In this document: piece by piece, positions 2,639 through 5,606 of the stretch | Numbering within the stretch: the first letter of the stretch is position 1 | Layout of the letters: each line of letters opens with the position of its first letter | Origin: Limnochorda pilosa | Lineage (GTDB): Bacteria; Bacillota; Limnochordia; Limnochordales; Limnochordaceae | DNA: 64,000 nucleotides | Direction: 5' to 3' | Assembly: GCF_001544015.1 (NCBI RefSeq) | Contig: NZ_AP014924.1 | Location: 1,054,001 to 1,118,000, forward strand | The notes under the pieces: model-generated | What the model was told of the DNA's origin: nothing | The model's database searches: none | What the model saw: the letters and a program-made list of their open reading frames with translations, nothing else | Position numbers and translations under genes: made by a program

Positions 2639-3505
<867 letters not shown>

Positions 3506-3538
3506 CGAAGATCACATCCACGAGAACGAACGAGCTTG

Positions 3539-3568
3539 TTGACATCCGGTGGGCACCATGTCTAAAAT
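3539..3568 (+). promoter_or_regulatory. Sigma-A type promoter for the FTR1 leader
   Basis: A perfect -35 box TTGACA (3539-3544) is separated by 18 bp from TAAAAT (3563-3568). Transcription would start near 3575, exactly where the structured leader begins. Confidence 0.75.
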
Positions 3569-3573
3569 GCCAC

Positions 3574-3682
3574 TGAGAGATCTTATCAGAAGGCGAGAGC
3601 GACTCTGATAGGAACCTCTCACAAGGAAGACGGAGTCCCAACAAGGTCGCGCTCCGCGTGGAGATGGCGCTTTTTTTGGGAC
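3574..3682 (+). promoter_or_regulatory. Structured 5' leader, candidate riboswitch/attenuator upstream of FTR1
   Basis: Just after the predicted transcription start lies a nested hairpin. The outer stem is TGAGAG (3574-3579) with CTCTCA (3616-3621), and the inner stem is TATCAGA (3584-3590) with TCTGATA (3604-3610). The inner stem encloses a GC-GAGA-GC tetraloop and a purine-rich asymmetric loop, and GGAAC sits on the 3' side. A terminator follows at 3648-3677. GTCCCAA (3635-3641) can pair with TTGGGAC (3676-3682), enclosing the terminator and consuming the end of its U-run. I could not match it to a riboswitch class. A metal ligand is plausible because the next gene is an iron permease. Confidence 0.5.
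3648..3677 (+). terminator. Intrinsic terminator inside the FTR1 leader
   Basis: A GC-rich imperfect hairpin (arms CGCGCTCC and GGAGATGGCGC, loop GCGT) is followed by seven T residues at 3671-3677. It lies about 135 bp before the FTR1 start codon, a normal place for an attenuator. From the terminator to the gene, further pairing is possible (TGAG 3709-3712 with CTCA 3742-3745, TAGCC 3716-3720 with GGCTA 3769-3773). Confidence 0.65.
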
Positions 3683-3812
3683 CGAATCCTGAGTGGCGTG
3701 GTAGGAATTGAGAGCTAGCCGGTTGCCGCGAAGCCGGGGAACTCAGCGCCTTCGTCGCCTGCCGCCAAGGCTATCGCCATCATAGGACCTGACGATCTGA
3801 GGAGGATCCCAC

Positions 3813-5366
3813 ATGGCATCTTCGGGCCGCACGAACCTTGTTAGGGCCACGCTGGCGCTGCTGGCGATCCTGAGTCTTGCCGCCCTCGCGGGTGGCCCCG
3901 CCGCTGGGGCCGAAGATCCGCGGGCTTCGCTGATGGCAGGAGTGGACCGGGCCCTCCAGGCGGCCGAGGCCGGGCGGATCGAGGAAGCAGCCGCCAGGTA
4001 CGACACCTTCCACGAGGTGTGGGAAGAGGTTGAGGACGGGCTCCATACGTCCAATCGCCACGGGTATGAGGCGATCGAAGCGGCCATTCGGGAGGTCCGG
4101 GTCCAACTCGCGGTGCAGCCGCCGCGATTCGATGCCCTCACCGATGCCCTGCTGAAACTGAAGACCGAGGTGGCCGAGTACGTTCCGGCAGGCACGGGCG
4201 CAGCGCAAGCGGGAAACGACCCGGCGGGCTCCACGGGCTCCCCCGCCTCAGACGAGGGCGGGCTCGGACGACTGGCAGTGCTTCTAGATCAGGCGGCGCG
4301 CGAGATCGACCAGGGCAAGGCCGGCGAGGCGCGGGAGCGGGTGGAAGCCTTCGTTGCCGCCTGGCCCGGGGTGGAGGGCGAGGTCCGCTCCCGCTCGCCT
4401 CGGGCGTACGAAGCCATCGAGCGCAATATGGCCCAGGTGATGGGCGCGCTGGCGTCGACGCCTCCGGACCTGGAGCGGGCGGGCAGCCTGGTGGCGGCGA
4501 TGGAGCAGGAGCTTGCCCCGATCGTAGCCCAGGCAGGCTCGTCGTACACCGCCTTCGATGCCGGCGTCGTCCTGCTGCGGGAGGGCCTGGAGGTGCTCCT
4601 TGTACTGCTCGCGCTGCTGGCCTTCCTGCAGCGGACCGGGCACGCGAAAGATCGTGTCTGGGTCTGGGGCGGAACCGCTGCAGGCGTGGCGGTGGCCGTG
4701 GGTCTGGGAGTCGCGCTCCGGAGCTTGCTCCAGGCGACCATGGCGGGGTGGGGCACCGAGATGGTGGAGGGCACGGCAGGGCTCGTTGCCGCGGGCCTCA
4801 TGCTCACCGTGGGTGCCTGGCTCCACGACAAGGCGAACCTGGCCCAGTGGAACGCGTACATCCAGAGCCAGGTGGGGCAGGCCCTGGCGCGGGGGAGCCT
4901 GATCTCCCTGGCCCTCATCGCCTTCCTGGCCGTGTTGCGGGAAGGGGCCGAGACCGTGGTCTTCTACATGGGCATGGCCGCGTCCATCGCGACCTCCCAG
5001 CTGGTGCTGGGGATCGCGGGCGCCTCCCTCCTCCTGGTGGCCGCAGGCGTGGCAGCCCTCCGGTTCGGCGCCCGCCTCCCGGTGCGCCCGCTCTTCCTGG
5101 TGGCCACCGTGCTCATCTACTACCTTGCTTTCAAGTTCACGGGACAGGCCATCCACGGGTTGCAGATCGCCCAGGAGCTTCCCGCGACCGCTCCCGGCTA
5201 CCTTCCTTCCATCAGCTTCCTGGGGATTCACCCCACCTGGGAAGGCGTCGCGGCTCAACTCGTCATGCTGGCCCTCATCGTTCTGAGCTGGATGCGGACC
5301 ACGTGGCGGGCGGCGGTCAAGCAAGCCAGGGTGCGAGCGGGGCTGGAGCCGGCGCATCGGAGCTGA
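3813..5366 (+). CDS. FTR1-family iron permease with extracytoplasmic N-terminal repeats
   Basis: A 517-residue protein. Residues 1-33 are a signal sequence. Residues 35-240 are soluble and contain two related helical units, RYDTFHEVWEEVED...RHGYEAIEAAI (63-92) and RVEAFVAAWPGVEG...PRAYEAIERNM (176-206), a duplication seen in long prokaryotic FTR1 proteins. The permease domain starts near 245. It carries the iron-binding REGLE motif at 256-260 and its counterpart REGAE at 376-380, as expected for Ftr1/EfeU permeases with seven membrane helices. AGGAGG precedes the ATG. It should import iron across the cytoplasmic membrane. Its leader suggests regulation at transcript level. Confidence 0.9.
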   Translation: MASSGRTNLVRATLALLAILSLAALAGGPAAGAEDPRASLMAGVDRALQAAEAGRIEEAAARYDTFHEVWEEVEDGLHTSNRHGYEAIEAAIREVRVQLAVQPPRFDALTDALLKLKTEVAEYVPAGTGAAQAGNDPAGSTGSPASDEGGLGRLAVLLDQAAREIDQGKAGEARERVEAFVAAWPGVEGEVRSRSPRAYEAIERNMAQVMGALASTPPDLERAGSLVAAMEQELAPIVAQAGSSYTAFDAGVVLLREGLEVLLVLLALLAFLQRTGHAKDRVWVWGGTAAGVAVAVGLGVALRSLLQATMAGWGTEMVEGTAGLVAAGLMLTVGAWLHDKANLAQWNAYIQSQVGQALARGSLISLALIAFLAVLREGAETVVFYMGMAASIATSQLVLGIAGASLLLVAAGVAALRFGARLPVRPLFLVATVLIYYLAFKFTGQAIHGLQIAQELPATAPGYLPSISFLGIHPTWEGVAAQLVMLALIVLSWMRTTWRAAVKQARVRAGLEPAHRS

Positions 5367-5442: not shown

Positions 5443-5455
5443 GTAGGCGGCAATC

Positions 5456-5545
5456 AACGGGGAGCTCACACGAGTGGGCTGAGAGGATGGGTACTGTCCC
5501 ATCGACCCTTCGAACCTGCTCCGGGTAATGCCGGCGTAGGGAAAG
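5456..5545 (+). promoter_or_regulatory. TPP riboswitch (THI element)
   Basis: The aptamer shows the hallmark TPP core: GGGGAGC at the 5' side, CTGAGAGG (the pyrimidine-sensing T-loop region), GACCCTTCGAACCTG and CCGGGTAATGCCGGCGTAGGGAA. Downstream, a short hairpin at 5548-5565 precedes an intrinsic terminator. Thiamine pyrophosphate binding is expected to switch off the thiBPQ operon. Confidence 0.97.
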
Positions 5546-5582
5546 ACAGGCGGCGTTGCCGCCTGCGCCTCTCGCTGCCCCT

Positions 5583-5606
5583 CGCCTCCCCCAAGGAGGC
5601 GTTTTT
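5583..5606 (+). terminator. TPP riboswitch expression-platform terminator (overlaps thiB SD)
   Basis: CGCCTCC and GGAGGCG form a perfect 7-bp stem with loop CCCAA, followed by five T residues. The 3' arm contains AAGGAGG, the only good Shine-Dalgarno for the next gene, so the same hairpin could both terminate transcription and hide the ribosome binding site. Confidence 0.85.

Follow-up and report, generated by a model that had tools for sequence, protein, structure and literature searches.

The locus considered here raises the question of whether the ~150-base stretch between a promoter and an iron-importer gene in Limnochorda pilosa is a regulatory leader, and, if so, by what means it might act. 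It lies in a window of 64,000 nucleotides (the whole stretch of DNA analysed), drawn from the single 3.82 Mb contig of this genome; the genus is represented by one other genome. The control of bacterial iron uptake is classically attributed to the repressors Fur and DtxR, together with small RNAs. A first-pass annotation of the window had proposed a new metal riboswitch with a terminator switch.

The leader of the FTR1 gene

The leader in the window (henceforth W) and the gene following it display these features:

3539..3568, plus strand: promoter TTGACA-18-TAAAAT, an 11/12 match to the consensus
3574..3621, plus strand: 5' hairpin (hairpin 1) of 6 bp + 10 bp with a GAGA loop, beginning at about the expected transcription start
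3629..3638, plus strand: GACGGAGTCC, the 5' side of helix B, with moderate conservation (GAC-NNN-GTCY in three of four leaders)
3646..3677, plus strand: terminator-like hairpin with U7 tract, of moderate strength, obtained by folding
3664..3699, plus strand: most conserved core, GGCGCTTTTTTTG-RGAYYGAATCC-N-RAGT, from comparison of four leaders
3679..3682, plus strand: GGAC, which pairs with GTCC at 3635-3638 and forms the 3' side of helix B
3800..3805, plus strand: Shine-Dalgarno sequence AGGAGG of the FTR1 gene
3813..5366, plus strand: FTR1/EfeU-family iron permease of 517 aa with an N-terminal extension

The near-perfect promoter and the nested hairpin directly after it are present as the first-pass annotation had described them. 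The hairpin couples a UGAGAG/CUCUCA stem to a 10-bp UCUUAUCAGA/UCUGAUAGGA helix, and only two G-C pairs close its GAGA loop. The leader (3574-3690) folds at -47.5 kcal/mol, with a z of -3.5 relative to shuffled sequence; its 5' half alone has a z of -4.6, a stability reached by none of 500 shuffles. The seven U ascribed to a terminator are likewise found (T residues at 3671-3677), but the hairpin preceding them is only moderate (about -8 to -11 kcal/mol) and goes undetected in a simple scan for consensus terminators. The stem GTCCCAA (3635-3641)/TTGGGAC (3676-3682), which had been taken to compete with this hairpin, in fact encloses it and is compatible with it; hence, there is no competition between the two. 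The sequence suggests a truly competing pairing, in which GACUCUG (3601-3607, in the 3' arm of hairpin 1) would join CGGAGUC (3631-3637) and so engage part of the GACGGAGTCC segment. A pseudoknot between the hairpin loop at 3595-3603 and the terminator arm at 3646-3654, complementary by eye at eight of nine positions, was dropped because it is seen in the window alone.

The assignment of the downstream gene to the FTR1 family is upheld by a match above the Pfam cut-off for PF03239; its closest relatives in our search are mainly from Bacilli, with 42-45% identity over the best segments. The gene upstream (2639-3505) codes for a ClpP-like SDH-type membrane serine protease (PF01972) with no obvious link to iron. 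Further downstream, a TPP riboswitch (RF00059, 59.1 bits; 5448-5601) precedes a thiamine-type ABC transporter operon, and a terminator-like hairpin at 5583-5601 comes after the riboswitch.

Four homologous leaders precede iron-uptake genes

A DNA search of the class with 3530-3700 recovered its best outside match in the genus mate (M1; L012, minus strand). This match is modest on its own (E 0.002); the locus repeats the surroundings of the W promoter, TTGACATC and TCTAAAATG, identically and also has GAGAGA and GCGCTTTTTTTG-GA--GAATCC. A second copy in the genome of L. pilosa itself (F; L123, minus strand) was found by a pattern with one mismatch, and a second copy in the genus mate (M2; L085, plus strand) was seen on reading upstream of related binding proteins and recovered independently by a pattern search. 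Three of the four (W, M1 and F) were located via their DNA and not via their genes.

All four leaders are followed by iron-uptake genes, which belong to three families: FTR1/EfeU after W; an FbpA-type protein after F, most closely related among solved structures to periplasmic proteins that bind ferric iron (7w3w, E 8e-88); an iron-siderophore binding protein (Peripla_BP_2) with a FecCD permease after M1; and another Peripla_BP_2 + FecCD operon after M2. The association with metal genes anticipated for relatives of W thus holds in every copy, as does the consistent association with one type of gene that is looked for in riboswitches. At M1 (1530-1479 on the minus strand) the core lies only ~25-35 nt 5' of the likely ATG of the binding-protein gene. 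This ATG lacks a good Shine-Dalgarno sequence, and an alternative TTG start within the U-tract, with AGGAGGG upstream of it, is possible.

In line with the by-eye comparison of the first-pass annotation, W matches no RNA family in Rfam: no family of Rfam 15 (NiCo, yybP-ykoY, M-box, S-box and ydaO included) reaches its gathering threshold there, and Rfam is also negative at the M1 and M2 loci. Matches to W at E up to 10 are confined to three chance ones (a snoRNA, a CRISPR repeat and an lncRNA). Across the class (73 genomes), a sequence model of the core (R1) retrieves the four leaders with E-values of 2e-6 to 6e-6, the next match being an unrelated sequence at 0.007; as R1 was trained on the same four, the informative outcome is that no others appeared. 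A longer model (R2) scores the four leaders at 67-72 bits, and nothing else in ~400 genomes of the phylum exceeds 19.5 bits; neither this set nor the class yielded a fifth copy. Similar blocks at L105, at L126-L131 and in the weak R2 matches were treated as chance in view of their low scores and the lack of iron genes where their context was read. The block at L105 (1501-1526, GCGCTTTCTTTATGAGATCGGAATCCAAG), from another family, resembles the core and is situated between speD and a sigma-factor gene, with no iron gene nearby.

Constant spacing and a shared core

In each of the four leaders, GAAT(C/T)C lies exactly 145 nt from the -35 box, and no gaps are needed to align them, although the middle of the leader is only ~40-50% identical among the copies. 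For most pairs and segments, including those in the middle, hardly any shifted register reaches the identity seen in the true one; identity in the true register is at background for some pairs with M2 and for W-F at idx 36-80 (idx numbers the positions from the start of the -35 box, window 3539 being idx 0). The four leaders share a common ancestry. A coding explanation was rejected, with no reading frame open in all four, as was a short ORF in W and M1, which starts within the -10 box and would fall outside the transcript from the leader promoter.

Conservation rises at the promoter, peaks at idx 120-160 (57-66% mean pairwise identity) and subsides to background past ~idx 200. Since it extends past the U-tract, the latter lies inside the conserved element and is not its end. 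The family core, GGCGCUUYUUU...RGAYYGAAUYC..AGU, is placed around and 3' of the U-tract, outside the 5' hairpin, and the sequence of this hairpin is not conserved in F, M1 and M2.

Helices and hairpin strength across the copies

Two helices emerge from the comparison. In all four copies, helix B joins idx 95-99 to idx 140-144 over a span of 40 nt; 95% of its cells are paired, and besides G-C to G-U changes there is one compensatory change, C-G to U-A in M1. The second helix (idx 62-66 with 88-92) shows compensatory changes between M1 and F; in W the corresponding arm is the 3' arm of hairpin 1, for which the above pairing of 3601-3607 with 3631-3637 is available. Together they have 87.5% of cells paired, as against at most 52.5% when slid, and four pairs changed on both sides; as both helices were chosen on these same four sequences, this pairing evidence is suggestive only, and with four sequences from two genomes the covariation is weak. 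A helix between the U-tract and a purine run (idx 85-91 with 132-138) was at the top of the helix scan and was distrusted as being of low complexity.

The hairpin before the U-tract is strong in M1 (-16 kcal/mol), moderate in W, and weak in M2 (-5.4 kcal/mol) and F (-4.3 kcal/mol); in M2 the U-tract is interrupted as well. A strong G+C-rich hairpin directly before the U-tract, as in a terminator attenuator, is thus not a feature shared by all four members. The stability of the 5' half is above chance in two of the leaders and not in the other two; the full M1 leader does not surpass shuffled sequence in stability, and the preferred fold of M2 lacks helix B. In sum, the stems of the family are weakly conserved. 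Of the metal riboswitch with a terminator switch envisaged at first, what stands is an unrecognised leader linked to iron in all copies; with weakly conserved stems, an uneven hairpin, the strongest conservation at and past the U-tract, and the restriction to one genus, the remainder is a possibility only.

Proposed iron-responsive control by the leader, and alternatives

The family of leaders is real and apparently undescribed, and its role as a cis-acting iron-control leader is well supported. The ~150-base stretch between promoter and importer gene is a member of this small family, whose copies occur in two related bacteria, each before a different iron-uptake gene; it is hence probably an undescribed switch for the control of iron. 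It likely acts through RNA. The best explanation, to which we would give an even chance, is that W belongs to a set of four homologous leaders, restricted to the genus, that regulate iron-uptake genes in cis by an alternative-fold mechanism. We infer as the simplest model a three-way switch between hairpin 1, the upstream GAC..GUC pairing and the long U-tract hairpin: the leader would be transcribed from its own promoter and its RNA would fold into alternative structures. With plentiful iron, the long U-tract hairpin (helix B, 3635-3638/3679-3682, around the terminator-like stem) would cut or slow transcription of the importer; under iron shortage, pairing of the GAC..GUC segment with the upstream 3' arm of hairpin 1 would let transcription continue. 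This direction of control is derived from the import function of the genes. Candidates for the signal are Fe2+, some other molecule linked to iron, and an RNA-binding protein that responds to iron. Against the switch model, the best-conserved bases lie 3' of the U-tract, where a plain terminator needs nothing, and the fixed length of the leader is not explained by it.

The ligand-specific form of this explanation is a true riboswitch, in which Fe2+ or an iron-linked metabolite would bind directly to the leader RNA, which would then switch transcription or translation. The iron association of all copies, the own promoter, the constant length and the core conserved past the U-tract are in its favor; however, the members have no clear conserved aptamer fold, their above-chance stability is uneven, and the family is confined to one genus. 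A new class of riboswitch that turns off iron import in this lineage through direct sensing of iron, as an RNA counterpart of Fur/DtxR control, is unlikely in our estimate. The presence of one short block, GGAYYGAAUYC, conserved amid variable sequence in several mRNAs of related function is also what one would expect if an iron-dependent RNA-binding protein or small RNA recognised the core and controlled read-through, translation or stability. No such partner is known, however, and the homology and fixed length span the whole leader, which exceeds the needs of a seed site; we view this as a credible option, albeit on the unlikely side.

Control at the level of DNA appears distinctly improbable. 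Here the core, at ~+90 to +125, would be an operator for a repressor, such as the single DtxR-family protein, which blocks elongation or acts with the promoter at a fixed spacing. The constant 145-nt distance, the one DtxR-family gene per genus genome and the perfect dyad GGATTGAATCC in M2 (the others being partial) agree with such an operator, but the copies in W (GGACCGAATCC) and F are poor dyads, and every copy has the 40-nt pairing of helix B. It is also very unlikely that there is no regulation by the leader at all, i.e., that a homologous promoter and 5' UTR with an mRNA-stabilising 5' hairpin was merely spread by duplication. Hairpins at the extreme 5' end are known to stabilise mRNA, and the terminator-like hairpin is weak in two of the four copies; nevertheless, the copies precede three families of iron-uptake genes in two genomes, and neutral drift to 40-50% identity without any change in length is improbable.

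Repressor boxes and relationship to known systems

With the patterns used, no Fur box was detected at the four leader promoters, and one is present at three FTR1 promoters of Bacilli. Likewise, no clear TTAGG-N-CCTAA (DtxR/IdeR-type) box is seen at the four promoters, just two-mismatch matches of the kind expected by chance. In neighbouring families of the order, such boxes adjoin the -10 at five of seven promoters of related binding proteins (upstream of the iron binding-protein genes at L078, L079, L080, L081 and L084). The two genus genomes have a single DtxR-family gene each, and members of family f4 have two or three (L174-L187); the lower-scoring second gene co-occurs with the TTAGG boxes. 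The absence of boxes and the single DtxR gene fit a lineage-specific change of iron control; a DtxR with a different operator sequence would also be compatible with the four promoters.

These systems are among the closest to the leader family. The siderophore-uptake promoters of DtxR/IdeR type in the same order serve genes that include orthologues of the M1 binding protein (64-68% identity) and distant relatives; unlike the leader family, they carry TTAGG-N-CCTAA next to the -10 and have no leader. The Fur-controlled FTR1/EfeU permeases of Bacilli are homologous to that of W, but their promoters have a Fur box and no such leader. By architecture, the family resembles intrinsic-terminator attenuators in having its own promoter, a 5' hairpin and a U-tract hairpin before the gene, and differs in the position of its U-tract, within the conserved element, and in the inconsistent strength of its hairpin.

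Among riboswitches, the czcD (NiCo) class (RF02683) is comparable as a metal-linked leader upstream of transport genes, and has been reported to respond to Fe2+ (Xu and Cotruvo, 2020, as cited in PMC9971707 and PMC9294342). It is the only class so reported in the literature examined (PMC9294342; PMC9971707), and its ligand is debated (PMC9294342; PMC9971707). It precedes putative cation efflux genes (PMC9294342), whereas the leaders described here precede importers and do not match its Rfam model. The yybP-ykoY manganese riboswitch is likewise a leader of metal homeostasis and can act via antitermination (PMC9294342); it is associated with manganese tolerance or efflux genes, in contrast to the iron importers and lack of an Rfam match of the present family. 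A literature search of incomplete coverage found no link between FTR1 and a bacterial riboswitch.

The four defined sequences are available for a direct test of iron sensing by the leader. Where relatives rely on standard repressor boxes, a leader confined to iron importers would signify a changed regulatory logic in this lineage.
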